From Elioraea thermophila (ex Habib et al. 2022) (GTDB taxonomy: Bacteria > Pseudomonadota > Alphaproteobacteria > Acetobacterales > Acetobacteraceae), in the NCBI RefSeq assembly GCF_003336755.1, contig NZ_QMDI01000006.1, positions 248,001 through 312,000 of the forward strand: a stretch of 64,000 nt of DNA, read 5' to 3'. This document shows, in pieces, positions 11,578 to 30,785 of the stretch. The notes below the pieces were generated by a model. It was not told the origin of the DNA. It searched no databases and was given only the letters and a program-made list of their open reading frames with translations. The translations under genes were made by a program, and so were the position numbers. Numbering within the stretch: the first letter of the stretch is position 1; each line of letters begins with the position of its first letter.

Positions 11578-11983
11578 GCCTCCGCTCGCCCGGCTCGCCT
11601 CCGTCGCACCCGGGAGGGTGCGGCTGAACCTCGGCCCAGCTGGGCGCGACCCCGCGCGTGCCGCTGCCCTCGTTCGCGAGTCCGTGCTGCTGCCCGGTGT
11701 GGTGTCGGCGGCGGCCAACCCGCTGACGGGAAGTCTTCTCCTGCGCTTCCGCGGCGAGGCGGAAACCGTGTTCGCCGCAGCCGCGCGGCAGGGGCTGTTC
11801 CGCGTCGACACGACACCGCAGCGACCCGCGGCGCCCGCCCGCGCAGCACCGATCGCAGCGGCCGCGCTCGGCCTGCTCGCTGCCGTCCAGGCGCTGCGCG
11901 GCGCCATTCTGCCTCCCGCCGTCACGTTGCTGTGGTACGCGGCGAGCCTCGCTCGGCGAGGCGACGACCGAGCCGGCGACTGA
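11531..11983 (+). CDS. Stand-alone HMA_2-domain protein with a C-terminal membrane helix
   Basis: Up to 150 residues. The start is uncertain: GTG codons at 11531, 11543 and 11558 are all in frame and all overlap the DUF5132 gene. The core SVAPGRVRLNLG ... LLPGVVSAAANPLTGSLLLRF is a ferredoxin-like heavy-metal-associated domain of the HMA_2 type. It lacks the CXXC metal motif. A hydrophobic segment follows (IAAAALGLLAAVQALRG and further). The N-terminus of the nearby P-type ATPase has the same domain, with the matching phrase PGVLSARANPVTGSVLVR. It may act as an accessory or regulatory subunit of that pump. It is convergent with the MetK-like gene, nine bases apart. Confidence 0.7.
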   Translation: MVRSVEPSPVPRARPEPPLARLASVAPGRVRLNLGPAGRDPARAAALVRESVLLPGVVSAAANPLTGSLLLRFRGEAETVFAAAARQGLFRVDTTPQRPAAPARAAPIAAAALGLLAAVQALRGAILPPAVTLLWYAASLARRGDDRAGD

Positions 11984-11992
11984 GCGCGCCGC

Positions 11993-13177
11993 TCAGCGCA
12001 GCGCCTCCGCCTCGGCGACACTCTCCCACGGCACGGCGAGATCCTCGCGCCCCATCTGCCCGTAGACGGCGAGCGGGCGGAAGAAGCCGCGCTCCTCGTC
12101 CGCCGCGTGCGCCCGCGCGCGCAAGCCGAAGCGACGCTCGATCGCGGCCGGGCGGAAGTCGAAACAGGCGCGCAGGCGGCGGGCGATCTCCTCCTCGTCG
12201 ACCCGCGCGGTGCCGAAGCACTCCACCCCGATGCTGAGCGGGCGCGCATGCCCGATCACGTAGCCGAGATGCACCTCGCAGCGCCGCGCGAGCCCGGCGG
12301 CGACCACGCATTTCGCCGCGTGCCGCGCGGCATAGGCGGCGACGCGATCGATGCGCGAGGGGTCCTTGCCGGAGAGGGCGGCGCCCGATTGGCGCGCCGC
12401 CTCGCCATAGGTGTCGATGCCGTTCTTCCGCCCCGTGAGCCCCGCGTGCCGCGAGGGACCGCCGATGGCGAACGGCCCGCCGGCGTTCACATGGATCTCG
12501 GTGCGCGGGCCGAGCGGCGGCTCGAGCCCGGCGAGAGCGGGTTCGATCACCGCCTCGCGCAACGCCCTCTCCATCGTCCGTTGCGGTGGCGTTCCCTCCA
12601 GCGTGGCGACGGTGAGCGAGACGGTGGCGAGTTCCGCCGGCCGCCCGCCGCGATACACCACGCCCGCCTGCGTCTTGCCGTCCGGCCCGAGCCAGGGCAG
12701 ATCGGCCCGCGCGGCGTCGAGGGCGCGCGCAAGCGCGTGCGCGAGCACGATCGGGCTCGGCATCAGCGAGGGCGTCTCGTCGCAGGCGTAGCCGAACACG
12801 TTCGCCTGCTCCGTCGCCGCCCAAGCCGCGATCTCGTCCTCATCGTCGAGCGCCTCCGGATGCGGGACGCGGTCGGCCGGCGGCAGTTCGGAGACCGAGG
12901 TGAGGATGGAACAGGTGCGGGCGTCGAAGCCTTCGCCGACATAGCCCGCTTCCGCGATCACCCGCCGCGCGAGCCCCGGCAGGTCGACCACCGCTTCGGC
13001 GGCGAAACGGGCGGCGATGAACACGATTCCCGTCGCCACCGCGCATTCGACGATGGCGCGCGCCCGCGCATCCTGGCGCAGGAAGGCATCGATCGCGGCG
13101 TCCGAAATGCGGTCGCAGAGCTTGTCGGGATGGCCCGGAGTGACCGACTCCGAGATCAGGATGGTGCCGTCACGCAT
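11993..13177 (-). CDS. Divergent S-adenosylmethionine synthetase (MetK-like) paralog
   Basis: 394 residues along the whole MetK fold: ISESVTPGHPDKLCDRISDA at the N-terminus, VFGYACDETPSLMPSP in the middle and GLTGRKNGIDTYG with SGKDPSRIDRVAAYAARH toward the end. Residues for ATP and metal are kept (His16, Asp18, Lys168, Arg250, Lys251, Lys271, Asp277). Several that bind methionine in the E. coli enzyme differ: the Asp of GPxGDxGLTGRK is His244, the Lys of SGKDPxK is Arg275, and the QSxDIAQG loop is replaced by TSVSELPPADR. It may make SAM poorly or use another substrate. Its start overlaps the ATPase stop by eight bases, so it is the third gene of the mgtE-ATPase operon. Confidence 0.8.
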   Translation of the reverse strand: MRDGTILISESVTPGHPDKLCDRISDAAIDAFLRQDARARAIVECAVATGIVFIAARFAAEAVVDLPGLARRVIAEAGYVGEGFDARTCSILTSVSELPPADRVPHPEALDDEDEIAAWAATEQANVFGYACDETPSLMPSPIVLAHALARALDAARADLPWLGPDGKTQAGVVYRGGRPAELATVSLTVATLEGTPPQRTMERALREAVIEPALAGLEPPLGPRTEIHVNAGGPFAIGGPSRHAGLTGRKNGIDTYGEAARQSGAALSGKDPSRIDRVAAYAARHAAKCVVAAGLARRCEVHLGYVIGHARPLSIGVECFGTARVDEEEIARRLRACFDFRPAAIERRFGLRARAHAADEERGFFRPLAVYGQMGREDLAVPWESVAEAEALR

Positions 13178-25896: not shown

Positions 25897-26310
25897 TTAA
25901 CGGGCGGCGTAGGCGTCCCGGCCGGTCCGCGCCGGGGCGGCGGCGGCATCATCCTCCTCCGCCGGCGCCTTGGCGATGCCGAGCACGCCGAGCAGGGCGT
26001 AAACGCCGATGGTCGTGCCGACGAAGCCCGCGACGAAGATGCCGACCGCGAGCAGCCAGTCGATCGGCCCGCCGAGATCGACGAAGCGGCTGTTGGTCAC
26101 CGCCATCATGATCACAAGCGCGGCCACCCCGCCGGCGAGACCGGCGAGCTCCGACCAGACCAAGCGGCGCGAGGCGATCCCGCCCTCGCGCACCAGGACC
26201 CAGACGAAGGCCAGGGTGGCGATGGTTGCGCCGGCGATGATCACCCAGAGCCAAGAGCCGAGCATCTCCTGGAAGACGGCCCAGAAGACGAGGGGGTCGA
26301 GTTCCTTCAT
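25897..26310 (-). CDS. DUF5368-family membrane protein
   Basis: 137 residues with four predicted membrane helices (about 16-40, 52-72, 82-102 and 105-115) and an acidic Ala-rich tail. The N-terminus MKELDPLVFWAVFQEMLGSWLW matches the DUF5368 pattern. These proteins have no defined function, but I know them mostly from sulfur-oxidising bacteria near sulfide-oxidising flavoproteins. That matches the gene just upstream here, 18 bases away on the same strand. A role in membrane docking or electron transfer of that enzyme is inference. Confidence 0.75.
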   Translation of the reverse strand: MKELDPLVFWAVFQEMLGSWLWVIIAGATIATLAFVWVLVREGGIASRRLVWSELAGLAGGVAALVIMMAVTNSRFVDLGGPIDWLLAVGIFVAGFVGTTIGVYALLGVLGIAKAPAEEDDAAAAPARTGRDAYAAR

Positions 26311-26328: not shown

Positions 26329-27651
26329 TCAGGCACGCCCGCGCAGCATCGCGAGGTAGGTCGGCTTCAGCGCGATTTCCTTCATCACCCAGGAGATCCA
26401 GAGCTCCTCGAGGGGCGCGATGATGCCTGGGAAGGACGGCGTGAGATTGTCGTTGTAGTCGAACTCCACCAGCATGGCGCGACCGATGCGGGTGATCAGC
26501 GGACACGACGTGTAGCCGTTGTAGCTCTCGGACGAGCGGGTGCCCGCGATGTCGGCGACCAGGTGATCGACCGCGACCGGAACCTGCCACTTCACCGAGG
26601 CCGCCGTCTTGCCCTTCGGCACGCCGGCGACGTCGCCGACCGCGAACACCTCCGGGAAGCGCTTGTGGCGCATGGTGTGGCGATCGACATCGACCCAGCC
26701 TTCGGCCGCCCACGGCCCGGTCTGCCAGGGCAGGGGCGAGTTGCGCACCACCTCGGGCGCCTTCATCGGGGGGACGACGTTGATGAAGTCGTAGCCCACC
26801 TCCTTCAACCCATCCGGCGTGCGGAAGGTGGCGATGCGTCGATCGAGGTCGAGCTTGGTCAGGGTGTGCTGATAGTTCACCTTGACGTCGCGATCGCCGA
26901 ACAGCATGCGCACCTTCTCGTGCACGATCGGCACGCTGAACAGCACCCGGGTCGGCGCGAAGTAGTTGAGTTCGGCCTTCGCCCGGTTGCCGCGGCGGCG
27001 CAGCACGTCGTCGGTGATGAAGGTGTACTTCAGCGGCGCGCCGGCGCATTTCATTTCGGTGGCGGGGCGAAGGAACAGGCCCACGCCCCCCTTGTCGGCG
27101 AAAGCGCTCATCGCCCGCCAGGTCGCCGCCGCCGCTTCCGGCCCTGCATAGACCGAGCCCATGCCGTTGCTGCCGATGCGGCGCACATCCATGCCCTCGA
27201 TCGCGCCGTAATCAAGCTCCAGCCCCGGGGCGACGATCAGGAAGTCGTAGGCGAGGCGACGGCCCGTGTCGGTCACCACCGTCTTCGCCACCGGGTCGAT
27301 CTCGGCCGCCCGCTCCTCGATCCAGCGCACCGGCTCGGACAGCCACTCGGCCGTGGTGCTGACCGTGTAGGAGGGCGGCTTCAGCCCGGCGGCGACCAGG
27401 GTGTAGCCCGGCTGGTAGAGGTGCTCGCGGCGACGGTCGAGCAGGATGATCTCCGCCCCCTCGAGCCGATCGGCCAGGCGGTTGGCGGCGGCAAGCCCGG
27501 CGGCACCCGCCCCGATGATGACGATCTTCGCTTTCGTCCGCACTGCGGCGGCGCGCGCCCGCGGCAGGAAGGCCGGAACGAGCCCCGCAGCCGCGGCGGC
27601 GGCGATCAGGCCGCGCCGGCCGAGGGTGGCGAGCTTGGGATCGATGGGCAT
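26329..27651 (-). CDS. FAD-dependent sulfide:quinone oxidoreductase-like protein (Tat-exported)
   Basis: 440 residues from ATG 27649-27651, behind GGGAGG. A Tat-like leader (TLGRRGLIAAAAAAG ... PRARA) precedes the FAD motif IVIIGAGAAGLAAANRLADRL. Two redox-type Cys are seen in the SQR pattern: EMKCAGAPLKY and SYNGYTSCPL. AVGDVAGVPKGKTAA is the second FAD motif, and the C-terminal amphipathic helix (ELWISWVMKEIALKPTYL) fits membrane docking. It likely oxidises sulfide in or near the periplasm and passes electrons to quinone; flavocytochrome c-type FccB is the alternative. It sits between a TDT-family transporter and a DUF5368 protein. Confidence 0.85.
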   Translation of the reverse strand: MPIDPKLATLGRRGLIAAAAAAGLVPAFLPRARAAAVRTKAKIVIIGAGAAGLAAANRLADRLEGAEIILLDRRREHLYQPGYTLVAAGLKPPSYTVSTTAEWLSEPVRWIEERAAEIDPVAKTVVTDTGRRLAYDFLIVAPGLELDYGAIEGMDVRRIGSNGMGSVYAGPEAAAATWRAMSAFADKGGVGLFLRPATEMKCAGAPLKYTFITDDVLRRRGNRAKAELNYFAPTRVLFSVPIVHEKVRMLFGDRDVKVNYQHTLTKLDLDRRIATFRTPDGLKEVGYDFINVVPPMKAPEVVRNSPLPWQTGPWAAEGWVDVDRHTMRHKRFPEVFAVGDVAGVPKGKTAASVKWQVPVAVDHLVADIAGTRSSESYNGYTSCPLITRIGRAMLVEFDYNDNLTPSFPGIIAPLEELWISWVMKEIALKPTYLAMLRGRA

Positions 27652-27683
27652 TCCTCCCTCCCGTTGTTGGGCTCTCGGGTTGG

Positions 27684-28694
27684 TCATCCCTCGGGCGCGA
27701 GCAGGGCGCCGGAGGCGGCGAGCTTGGCCGTGCGCACCGAGACGAGGCCGACGATCACGGTCGTGAGCGCGAGCAGGGCCCACAGAAGGGGCGCATGCCA
27801 AACGGCCGGATAGGCGTGCGAGGCGGCGAGTGCGGCCACCGTGAAGGCGGCGACCGGGAAGGTCCAGGCCCAGGCGGAGAGCGCGAAGGGGGCGCGCACG
27901 AGGTCGCGGGCGAGGAGCGCGATCACCAGCGCAACGAAGCCGGCGAAGCCGAACACGGCGAGCGAGACCGGCCCGAAACCACCGGTGAGCTGGGCCAAGG
28001 CGAGCGCCCCCACGGCGGGCGGGGCGAGCAGGATGACGATGGTCGGCCGCAGCTTGGGCGGCAGCGGCGCCCCGGTCATCAGGCGCAGGAACAAGAGCGG
28101 CTGCAGGAACAGCCAGAGCGCCGTGCCGAGCCCGAACATCAGGAGCGAGGCGGTCTCGAAGCCCATCTTCATGCCGAAGAGCGGGGCGAGGATGTTGCCG
28201 ACCAGCGGGATCAGCAGGGGCGGGGTCAGCGCAGCCGGCTCGCGCGGCGAGACGAGCAGGTCGCGCACCGTCCAGGCGGCGATGGCGAGGTGGCCGAGGA
28301 CAGCGACGATCCACACCGCCCGGGCAAGGCCGAGCGCATGCGGGAGGAGCGCGGCGGAGGCGATCATCAGCCCGATCGTCACCGCCCCGGCGAAGGCCGA
28401 GCGCACGGGGTGCTTCAGATCGGCCGCCACCGCCTCGGGGTGGCGAACGAGCCGGACGGCATGCAGGGCGAGGATGACGACCCAGAGCACGACGGAGAGG
28501 CCGAGCAGCGCCTCGCCCACCGCACCCGGTGCACCGAGCACCCGCCCCGCCTCACGCCAGGCGAGGCCGAGCCCCCCCACCCCCATCGGCACCGCGAACA
28601 GCGGCAGGGGCAGATGCGCGAGCCCCGCCGCGTGTGCGGTGGATGGCACCGTGGCCTGCGGCATGCCCTGGGACGGCATGGAGACGCTCGACAT
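27684..28694 (-). CDS. TDT/SLAC1-family transporter (TehA/Ssu1-like)
   Basis: 336 residues with about ten membrane helices, the fold of the tellurite-resistance/dicarboxylate transporter family. Motifs include LPLPLFAVPMGVGGLGLAWR at the first helix and PLVGNILAPLFGMKMG in the middle. Known members export sulfite (yeast Ssu1) or conduct small anions (TehA, SLAC1). Here it is first gene of an operon with the sulfide-oxidising flavoprotein, so export of sulfite or another sulfur anion is a reasonable inference. The ATG at 28694 lies 33 bases from a palindrome and 45 from the putative operator. Confidence 0.85.
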   Translation of the reverse strand: MSSVSMPSQGMPQATVPSTAHAAGLAHLPLPLFAVPMGVGGLGLAWREAGRVLGAPGAVGEALLGLSVVLWVVILALHAVRLVRHPEAVAADLKHPVRSAFAGAVTIGLMIASAALLPHALGLARAVWIVAVLGHLAIAAWTVRDLLVSPREPAALTPPLLIPLVGNILAPLFGMKMGFETASLLMFGLGTALWLFLQPLLFLRLMTGAPLPPKLRPTIVILLAPPAVGALALAQLTGGFGPVSLAVFGFAGFVALVIALLARDLVRAPFALSAWAWTFPVAAFTVAALAASHAYPAVWHAPLLWALLALTTVIVGLVSVRTAKLAASGALLAPEG

Positions 28695-28726: not shown

Positions 28727-28739
28727 TAAGAATTTCTTA
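28727..28739. repeat. Small palindrome upstream of the TDT-SQR operon
   Basis: TAAGAATTTCTTA is a perfect 6+1+6 palindrome. It stands directly beside the ACCTTCG...CGAAGGT repeat and shares its last base. AT-rich sequence of this kind is rare in this genome, which marks the stretch as regulatory. It may be a second binding site of the same regulator or part of the promoter. Confidence 0.4.
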
Positions 28740-28758
28740 CCTTCGCATATACGAAGGT
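28739..28758. promoter_or_regulatory. Candidate SqrR/BigR-type (ArsR-family) sulfide-responsive operator
   Basis: ACCTTCG (28739-28745), a six-base AT-rich spacer CATATA, then CGAAGGT (28752-28758): a perfect seven-base inverted repeat. Its core fits TTC-N8-GAA, close to ATTC-N8-GAAT known for SqrR, which represses sulfide-quinone reductase genes until persulfide is present. It lies 45-64 bases before the ATG of the TDT-SQR-DUF5368 operon. A -35-like TTGCCA occurs just upstream on the minus strand. The regulator gene itself is not in this window. Confidence 0.5.
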
Positions 28759-28972: not shown

Positions 28973-29047
28973 TGGTGGGCGCGGTAGGGATTGAACCTAC
29001 GACCCCTGCCGTGTGAAGGCAGTGCTCTCCCGCTGAGCTACACGCCC
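28973..29047 (-). tRNA. tRNA-Val (anticodon CAC)
   Basis: The minus strand folds as a full cloverleaf. The acceptor stem GGGCGTG pairs with CGCGCCC (one G-T pair). The D-arm is GCTCAGCGGGAGAGC. The anticodon arm is CTGCC-TTCACAC-GGCAG, which places CAC at positions 34-36 and reads the codon GTG. The T-arm is GTAGG-TTCAATC-CCTAC. A discriminator A and an encoded CCA (28973-28975) end the gene. GTG is a frequent valine codon in this GC-rich window. Confidence 0.95.
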
Positions 29048-29139: not shown

Positions 29140-29922
29140 ATGCGTCTGGCGCTTGCCACCGCCGCCCTGCTGGTTGCCGCAGCGCCGGCCTTCGGCGCCG
29201 CGGTCGAGGCGCAGTACACGGCGCGGGTCGGCGCGTTTCGCGTGATGACGATCGACGTCGCCGCCGACCTGCGCGAGGACGCCTATCGCGTCCGCGCCCG
29301 CGCCCGCTCCTCCGGCGTCGCCACCCTCGCCACCCGGTTCGATCAGACCGCCACCGCCGAGGGCCGCTTCACCCCGGCAGGGCTCCGTCCCGTGCTGTTC
29401 CGCGCCGAGGGCGACTGGCAGGGCGAACGCCGCCTCGTGGAGATCGCACTGACCGAGCCCGCGCCGCGGATCCGGCTCGAGCCGCCCGAGGTGCCGGAGC
29501 GCGAGCCCGTGCCGCCCAGCCTCGCCCAGGGCGGCATCGACACCCTCACCGCCCTCGTTGCCGTCTCCCGCGCGGTCGCCGCCCGCGGGGAGGCGGGCTG
29601 CGCCATGACCCTGACCGTGTTCGACGGTCGGCGGCTGAAGCGGATCGCGCTCGCTCCCGCCGGCACCGGGCCCGTGCCCGACCGGCCCGGCGTGGAGGCG
29701 GTGCGCTGCCGCCTCGAAGGGCGCCAGATCGCGGGCTTCTGGCGCGACTGGGACCGGGCGGAGGCCGAAAAACCGCAGTTCGGCTCGGTCTGGATCGCGC
29801 CCCCCTACGCCGGCGCGCCGGCGATGCCGCTCAGGCTCGAGATGGGCATCGACTGGCTCGGCACCCTCGTCGTCTCCCTCACCCGCGCCGCTCCCGCCGC
29901 CACCCGGCAGGCGGCGCGATGA
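29140..29922 (+). CDS. DUF3108 periplasmic protein (first of a tandem pair)
   Basis: About 260 residues from the ATG at 29140, which opens the signal peptide MRLALATAALLVAAAPAFGA. The upstream in-frame ATG at 29068 gives a proline-rich shadow. The mature part has the DUF3108 pattern: YTARVGAFRVMTIDVAADL at the start, a central EREPVPPSLAQGGIDTLTAL and the C-terminal MPLRLEMGIDWLGTLVVSL strands. Family members are predicted envelope beta-barrel-like proteins of unknown role. The stop overlaps the start of a second copy (ATGA). Confidence 0.8.
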   Translation: MRLALATAALLVAAAPAFGAAVEAQYTARVGAFRVMTIDVAADLREDAYRVRARARSSGVATLATRFDQTATAEGRFTPAGLRPVLFRAEGDWQGERRLVEIALTEPAPRIRLEPPEVPEREPVPPSLAQGGIDTLTALVAVSRAVAARGEAGCAMTLTVFDGRRLKRIALAPAGTGPVPDRPGVEAVRCRLEGRQIAGFWRDWDRAEAEKPQFGSVWIAPPYAGAPAMPLRLEMGIDWLGTLVVSLTRAAPAATRQAAR

Positions 29923-30785
29923 CGCGAACGCGTCTTGCCCGCACGACGCGCGCGGGCGAGAGGCTGCGCATGCTCCGCGCCCTCGCCCTCGCCGCCCTCG
30001 CCCTCGCCCCCGCCCTGCCCGCCCAGGCGGCGGAACCGGTGCTCGCCTCCTACACCGTCTACTTCTCCGGCTTCCGGGTGGTGGAGCTCGACGCCTCCCT
30101 CGACCTCGCCCCCGAGCGCTATCGCGCGGTGGCACGGCTGCGCACGGCGGGGCTGCTCGCCACCTTCGTGCGCGGCGAACAGGTCTCCGAAGTGGAGGGG
30201 AGGGTCGCGCCCGCCACCGCCCTCGGCCTCGCCCCCGACCGCTACGCCATGGAAGGCCGCTGGCGCGACCGCGTGCGGCGCATCGCGCTGCGCTGGGACG
30301 GCGCCACCCCGGAAGTGCTCGCCCTCCTCCCGGCCAACGACGAGGAACGCGAGCCCGTTCCACCCGAACTGCAACGCGGCACGGTGGACACGATGTCCGC
30401 CCTGGTCGCTCTCATCGCCCGCGTCTCGGCGAGCGGGCGCTGCGACGGCGCGGCGGCGGTGTTCGACGGCCGGCGGCGCAGCGACTTCACCGCCGTCACC
30501 GAAGGCGAGGAGACGCTCGCCCCCCATCGCTGGGGTCTCTACGCCGGCCCGGCCCTGAAGTGCCGCTTCGAGGGCCGCCAGGTGGCCGGGTTCTGGCGCG
30601 AGGCAGACCCCGCTCAGGCGCGCGAACCGCGCACCGGGGCCGCCTGGCTCGCCCGCCCCGGCCCCGACCTACCGGTGATCCCGGTGCGGATCGACGCCGA
30701 GACGAACTGGGGCACCATCCACATCCACCTGACCAAGGTCGGCCGCGGCGAGGTGCCGCTTCCCCTGCGCGAGAGCCGCAACTGA
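29919..30785 (+). CDS. DUF3108 periplasmic protein (second of a tandem pair)
   Basis: 288 residues from the ATG in the ATGA overlap; a second ATG at residue 18 (MLRALALAALALAPALPAQA) would give a cleaner signal peptide. It matches its upstream neighbour across the whole length: YTVYFSGFRVVELDASLDL, EREPVPPELQRGTVDTMSAL, VFDGRR, and a C-terminal INWGT-like strand (AETNWGTIHIHLTKV). The pair therefore arose by duplication. Function unknown. glmU follows after 96 bases. Confidence 0.8.
   Translation: MTRTRLARTTRAGERLRMLRALALAALALAPALPAQAAEPVLASYTVYFSGFRVVELDASLDLAPERYRAVARLRTAGLLATFVRGEQVSEVEGRVAPATALGLAPDRYAMEGRWRDRVRRIALRWDGATPEVLALLPANDEEREPVPPELQRGTVDTMSALVALIARVSASGRCDGAAAVFDGRRRSDFTAVTEGEETLAPHRWGLYAGPALKCRFEGRQVAGFWREADPAQAREPRTGAAWLARPGPDLPVIPVRIDAETNWGTIHIHLTKVGRGEVPLPLRESRN

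Follow-up and report, generated by a model that had tools for sequence, protein, structure and literature searches.

The TDT-SQR-DUF5368 operon of the window, the whole 64,000-nucleotide stretch of DNA analysed here (C6:248001-312000), raised the question of which regulator acts on the AT-rich island in front of its first gene. An earlier note on this DNA had read the island as a persulfide-responsive operator, and this reading was supported by a gene for a SqrR-type regulator with both cysteines, by the first rank of the island with a promoter motif, and by a composite operator at the promoter of the regulator. With a probability of about 0.85, the sequence evidence points to the island at 28727-28758 as a persulfide-responsive operator of the SqrR/BigR/SoxR-type ArsR repressor encoded at C6:228032-228361. 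The site, its kin in other promoters, the arms in an orthologous operon, and the regulator with its cysteines were all read from the DNA itself. The gene assignments of the earlier note also held (Table 1): TDT matched PF03595, DUF5368 matched PF17336, and SQR matched the PDB chains of mitochondrial SQOR (E 1.7e-66) with the KCAGAP and YTSCPL motifs, presumably the carriers of the active-site cysteines, aligned. Against NF049943, SQR scored 200.7 bits, below the cut-off of 525. A twin-arginine-like leader, GRRGLIAAAAAAGLVPAFLPRARA, was seen by eye at the N-terminus of SQR (window 27570-27690) and may suggest export. On the other side of the promoter region, a tandem pair of DUF3108 paralogues (260 and 288 aa as translated, 38% identical) was located beside tRNA-Val (window 29140-30785).

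Table 1. Coordinates in the window of the operon genes, the upstream tRNA gene and the elements of the candidate operator
Feature	Position	Strand	Evidence or remark
TDT / SLAC1-TehA family transporter, operon gene 1	27684..28694	-	PF03595 E 1.6e-45; SLAH3, TehA, SLAC1 chains
Sulfide:quinone oxidoreductase (SQR), mitochondrial SQOR kind, operon gene 2	26329..27690	-	start overlaps TDT end
DUF5368 protein, frequent partner of SQR of this kind	25897..26310	-	PF17336 E 1e-35
tRNA-Val(cac), upstream of operon on the same strand; promoter-region boundary	28973..29047	-	ARAGORN
Core palindrome ACCTTCG-CATATA-CGAAGGT, main predicted repressor site	28739..28758	.	rank 1 in the 64-kb window
TAAGAATTTCTTA, second palindrome of the earlier note; probable source of the outer TTC half-site	28727..28739	.	
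Second, overlapping predicted repressor site AATTTCTTACCTTCGCATAT, offset 8 bp	28731..28750	.	rank 2 in the window
Composite operator TTC-N5-TTC-GCA-N5-GAA (+ strand reading)	28734..28755	.	two overlapping TTC-N8-GAA-like sites, offset 8 bp

Both repeats of the island had the letters and coordinates given to them earlier, and the island was located 33-64 bases upstream of the first gene as described, with the start codon of TDT at 28694. The window contained 13 perfect 7-6-7 inverted repeats, and only the one at 28739 had at least 11 A/T among its 20 bases. When the 32-base island was shuffled in 100,000 trials, a 7-6-7 repeat arose in 0.17% of them and TTC-N8-GAA in 0.8%. The claimed fit to TTC-N8-GAA was correct in that the core was present (28742-28755), but it carried no weight as evidence by itself because the window held 20 matches against 6.0 expected. 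The longer CCTTC-N8-GAAGG was also common, with 25 exact places genome-wide (counted from the listed exact places). Such frequencies are what a chance AT-rich palindrome without function would draw on, and an independent predictor of the site was therefore sought. A sigma-70-like promoter was looked for and none was found, which counts against the operator reading.

The predictor was built from the promoters of SqrR homologues. Homologues were matched in 61 of 150 genomes and loci were taken from 30; with the own genome left out, 29 promoters remained as donors, each from a different genome, although one of these (G097) was of the same genus, a point against the operator. A palindromic de novo search yielded the motif ATATTCGTAATTACGAATAT; it covered at most 205 bp about the start of each of the 29 homologues, all from other genomes of the family. 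Sites of at least 12 bits were present in 23 of the 29 donors; the six below this value (L045, L056, L059, L068, L069, and L072; 1.4 to 11.5 bits) were kept in the motif, and the promoter alignment and covariance model were built from the 23 only. The motif was scanned over the window plus 478 kb. Within the window, the site at 28739 came first (17.1 bits) and that at 28731 second (16.2 bits), followed by a site of 8.9 bits. None of 100 Markov-simulated windows (highest 16.5) and none of 1000 column-permuted motifs (highest 13.0) reached 17.1 bits, and base composition alone therefore does not explain the score. Control DNA of 20 stretches of 20 kb (400 kb) had no site of at least 15 bits, two of at least 13 and four of at least 11, with the top four at 14.1, 14.0, 11.2, and 11.0 bits. 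The first rank with a motif from other genomes, the lack of an equally good site in the 400 kb of control DNA, and the arms kept in genome G153 made a chance palindrome extremely unlikely. Run unfiltered on the window only, the covariance model matched nothing but the candidate operator, once per strand (E 0.26 and 0.83). Its scan of two whole genomes gave no match, which speaks against the operator, in a search whose filters may miss a model of this shortness. By eye, several SqrR-homologue promoters had half-sites every 8 bp after a TTGACA-like box, as in L070, where TTCGTATT TTCGTAGG TTCGCAAG TATGAA followed just after such a box at 8-bp spacing.

The earlier note had named a genome search for a SqrR/BigR homologue with paired cysteines as a check on its reading. 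At E <= 1e-18, this search found exactly one SqrR/BigR-type ArsR gene, and its product has both C35 and C101. It was the best of eight PF01022 matches, six of which were over the cut-off, and was located about 20 kb before the window and about 48 kb from the operon. Its best PDB matches were 6o8k and 13ct/6o8l-6o8o (E about 3e-23), listed there as 'Transcriptional regulator, ArsR family' and taken by us to be SqrR of Rhodobacter capsulatus, followed by BigR 3pqj (1.3e-19). C35 and C101, 66 residues apart, were the only cysteines of the protein, and both positions were Cys in all 34 homologues examined, a count that leaves out L137 and L138. Against the NCBIfam BigR equivalog NF040642 the regulator scored 83.7 bits, below the cut-off of 155; this counts against the preferred reading, and the protein is therefore called SqrR/BigR/SoxR-type, with no narrower assignment. 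The gene was divergent from two genes matching halves of PF04143 (Sulf_transp), which we take to be the YeeE/YedE family, and the NCBIfam matches of these two neighbours to YedE and TsuA/YeeE were weak and under the cut-off. With eight PF01022 matches in the genome, a real operator might be read by another regulator. This is very unlikely, however, in view of the single protein that matched the SqrR-type query at E <= 1e-18, of the fusion of L002 to a methyltransferase-like part and the missing first cysteine of L003 (both by sequence reading), and of the origin of the motif in SqrR-homologue promoters, together with the composite operator in the regulator's own promoter.

In that promoter, the motif scored 11.5 and 11.4 bits in two registers 8 bp apart. 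The best control sites scored in the same range, a point against the preferred reading, and the standing of this operator therefore rests on conservation. When the promoter was aligned across six members of the genus, an invariant frame of CTTCA, TTCGAA, and CAAGAA emerged, equal to TTC-N5-TTCGAA-N5-GAA (TTCNNNNNTTCGAANNNNNGAA). An exact match to this pattern was found once in each of six of the seven genomes of the genus and nowhere else in them, and in all six its first base was 61-74 bp upstream of where the regulator match starts. Since the pattern was written after the promoter alignment and the window had been seen, the exact matches at the six regulators follow from the way it was made; what is informative is that it was absent from other places. 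A regulator-type match at E <= 1e-15 was present in all seven genomes; the sole match of G152 was a 45% relative, and the composite-pattern search with up to one mismatch gave a single place in G152, just upstream of its SQR gene.

In the window, positions 28734-28755 read TTC-TTACC-TTC-GCA-TATAC-GAA, one mismatch from the composite operator. With up to two mismatches, the pattern had two places in the window against 0.77 expected, the one at 28734 being the better. With up to one mismatch, it had four places in the own genome: the regulator, 28734-28755, C2:61643, and C6:633450. The match at C2:61643 was beside a repeated unit, with no called gene around; a 35-base unit starting TTTTGACCCCCTGAAGAACGGG flanked it on both sides (C2:61580-61740, L106:11580-11740). 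The backward control of the pattern gave no match in G000, G097, G151, and G152, one in G150, five in G153, and three in G154, which weighs against the operator reading, and a one-mismatch match alone is therefore no proof. The single mismatch makes the two palindromes of the earlier note look like parts of one operator; TAAGAATTTCTTA was indeed present, but is probably not a separate element and rather supplies the outer TTC half-site. It is conceivable, though doubtful, that the genus has in TTC-N5-TTCGAA-N5-GAA a composite operator of its own kind. The overlapping dyads, with TTCGAA in the middle as their common part, would then allow two repressor dimers (or alternative registers) to cooperate, and the response to persulfide would be graded or switch-like; the SQR promoters would use degenerate forms, opening at sulfide levels different from those that open the promoter of the regulator. 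Another pattern, TTCRNANNTNYGAA, had been written after the sites were seen and was rejected for its lack of independence; the sox sites do not match it. Its matches against those of the backward control were 3/0 in the own genome, 3/1 in G097, 0/3 in G125, and 1/1 in G045; two of the three places in the own genome were the sites already in hand, and the third was in a probable molybdopterin-biosynthesis frame (by eye).

Around the own sox cluster and the regulator (78 kb), the motif reached at least 15 bits at two places. The first (L100:11936, 17.2 bits) was between two divergent cytochrome c genes, one on the plus strand at 12016 and the other with its start at 11918. The latter, in which CVGCHG was seen by eye, was followed by a flavoprotein gene and then by soxC, and the flavoprotein was 80% identical to a G097 protein matching PF21706 and PF09242, the domains of flavocytochrome c sulfide dehydrogenase (FCSD). 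The second (L100:18175, 16.2 bits) was upstream of soxY, at a distance of about 113-136 bp that varies with the start codon chosen. The soxB, soxC, soxY, and soxZ genes of the own genome were assigned with NCBIfam models, all over the cut-off. In G097, the equivalent sites scored 15.6 bits (between the orthologues of the cytochrome c and fcc genes) and 14.3 bits (before soxYZB), and a further place of 11.6 bits was inside the flavoprotein gene. Because like sites occurred at the regulator, soxYZB, and cytochrome/fcc, the TDT-SQR-DUF5368 operon looks like one regulon member. The SqrR-type repressor thus appears to have several targets, this operon among them, in a probable sox/fcc/SQR regulon.

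The tRNA-Val end, TDT (80% identical), SQR (72-86% in pieces), and DUF5368 (69%) were found in the same order in G153, and the 3' part of tRNA-Val aligned at the same place. The intergenic DNA had diverged, but the corresponding place still carried CCTTC-N8-GAAG, at a distance of 33 bp upstream of TDT compared with 44 bp here. Neither the outer bases nor the second palindrome were conserved. The motif score of the G153 site was -1.6, which counts against the operator. The SQR frame of G153 was broken (L131, G153:C91; 88%-complete genome), owing to decay or assembly error, a further point on the same side. The island might instead act as an RNA hairpin, either an attenuator or a terminator for readthrough from tRNA-Val, which is upstream on the same strand; the 91-nt minus-strand RNA had a folding energy of -37.3 kcal/mol compared with -26.7 kcal/mol for shuffles (z -3.5), and only 1 of 200 shuffles was as good. 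The matching stretch of G153, however, folded ordinarily (z -0.55) and had only a 4-bp stem between the arms, although the arms were kept, and this difference disfavours a conserved hairpin. A terminator-like site was looked for in vain, and like sites were present in the regulator's and sox promoters, so that a hairpin in place of a protein-binding site is highly unlikely. As for the predicted operator at other SQR genes of the genus, the SQR proteins of G097, G154, and G152 were 55-56% identical, with TDT absent from the fetched stretches. Just upstream of SQR, an AT-rich stretch contained CTTCGAA in G097 and G154 and CCTTCGAA in G152, with motif scores of 12.0, 8.3, and 9.1 bits in G097, G154, and G152, respectively. 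TDT relatives were found in 12 of the 150 family genomes, the own genome among them; footprinting through them was given up, as SQR was present in the own genome's stretch alone among the 12 fetched.

We infer binding, repression, persulfide sensing, and the transported anion as follows. A repressor dimer in the dithiol state would bind the TTC-N8-GAA dyad and block the transcription of TDT-SQR-DUF5368; TTC-N5-TTCGNA-N5-GAA may be occupied by two dimers or in two registers. On a rise in sulfide, cellular persulfide or polysulfide would bridge C35 and C101 and release the repressor; SQR would then be made and sulfide oxidised, and TDT would probably serve as the channel for a sulfur anion, for example sulfite. 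The same repressor would use the related sites at three further places: ahead of its own gene and the two neighbouring sulfur-transport genes, ahead of soxYZB, and between the cytochrome c gene and the FCSD-like pair.

SQR is a target of SqrR in R. capsulatus. The system here shares with it an ArsR protein with a cysteine pair and the TTC-N8-GAA core. It differs in the second overlapping site at an 8-bp offset, in the position of the regulator about 48 kb from the operon and beside sulfur-transport genes, and in having a TDT transporter as the first gene of the target. The deduced RcSqrR site is ATTC-N8-GAAT according to PMC9774250, whereas CTTC-N8-GAAG was found here; only the core matched, which counts against the preferred reading. 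According to PMC10451225 and PMC12423496, SoxR and sHdrR of Hyphomicrobium denitrificans are dithiol sulfane-sulfur-responsive ArsR repressors on sox promoters, and SoxR gave two shifted bands on the soxXA-soxYZB region. Sites were predicted at sox promoters here too, but the predicted targets also included the SQR operon, and the genome yielded a single regulator of this type where Hyphomicrobium has two. The C35/C101 spacing equalled that of C50/C116 in SoxR and that of C34/C100 in Acinetobacter BigR, whose targets include a yeeE/yedE operon according to PMC7315123. The regulator shared the sequence family and the cysteine pair with BigR of Xylella and Acinetobacter, but was under the NCBIfam BigR cut-off. 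The island is well supported as a predicted operator whose kind is known and whose place is newly recognised, an ordinary extension of a known regulatory system.

The operon is in this way tied to a specific sensor, and a candidate regulon of the regulator with its sulfur-transport genes, soxYZB, cytochrome/fcc, and SQR is offered; for DUF5368, it gives a regulatory reason to place the protein in sulfide oxidation. In the literature library searched, the name DUF5368 and SqrR together with Acetobacteraceae each returned no paper. Among 17 related SQR loci from named genomes, DUF5368 followed SQR in 14, and the three without it were titled Campylobacterales or Sulfurospirillum; TDT was present in one of the 17 stretches (L078, downstream) and a SqrR-like gene in one (L088). 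The motif reached at least 12 bits near and upstream of SQR only in L074 (13.8 bits, at the likely SQR start) and L082 (13.5 bits, about 380 bp before the matched region), with L089 being without upstream DNA, and it was rejected as a general mark of SQR loci in named genomes, a further point against the operator. In the AT-richer L080, L084, and L086, scores of 14-18 bits occurred away from SQR, at chance or unknown sites. The SqrR-like gene of L088 (995-1344; Rhabdaerophilum calidifontis), 37% identical, was in the same stretch as SQR-DUF5368 and had the motif directly upstream at 16.3 and 14.2 bits, and the motif may therefore hold beyond the family.
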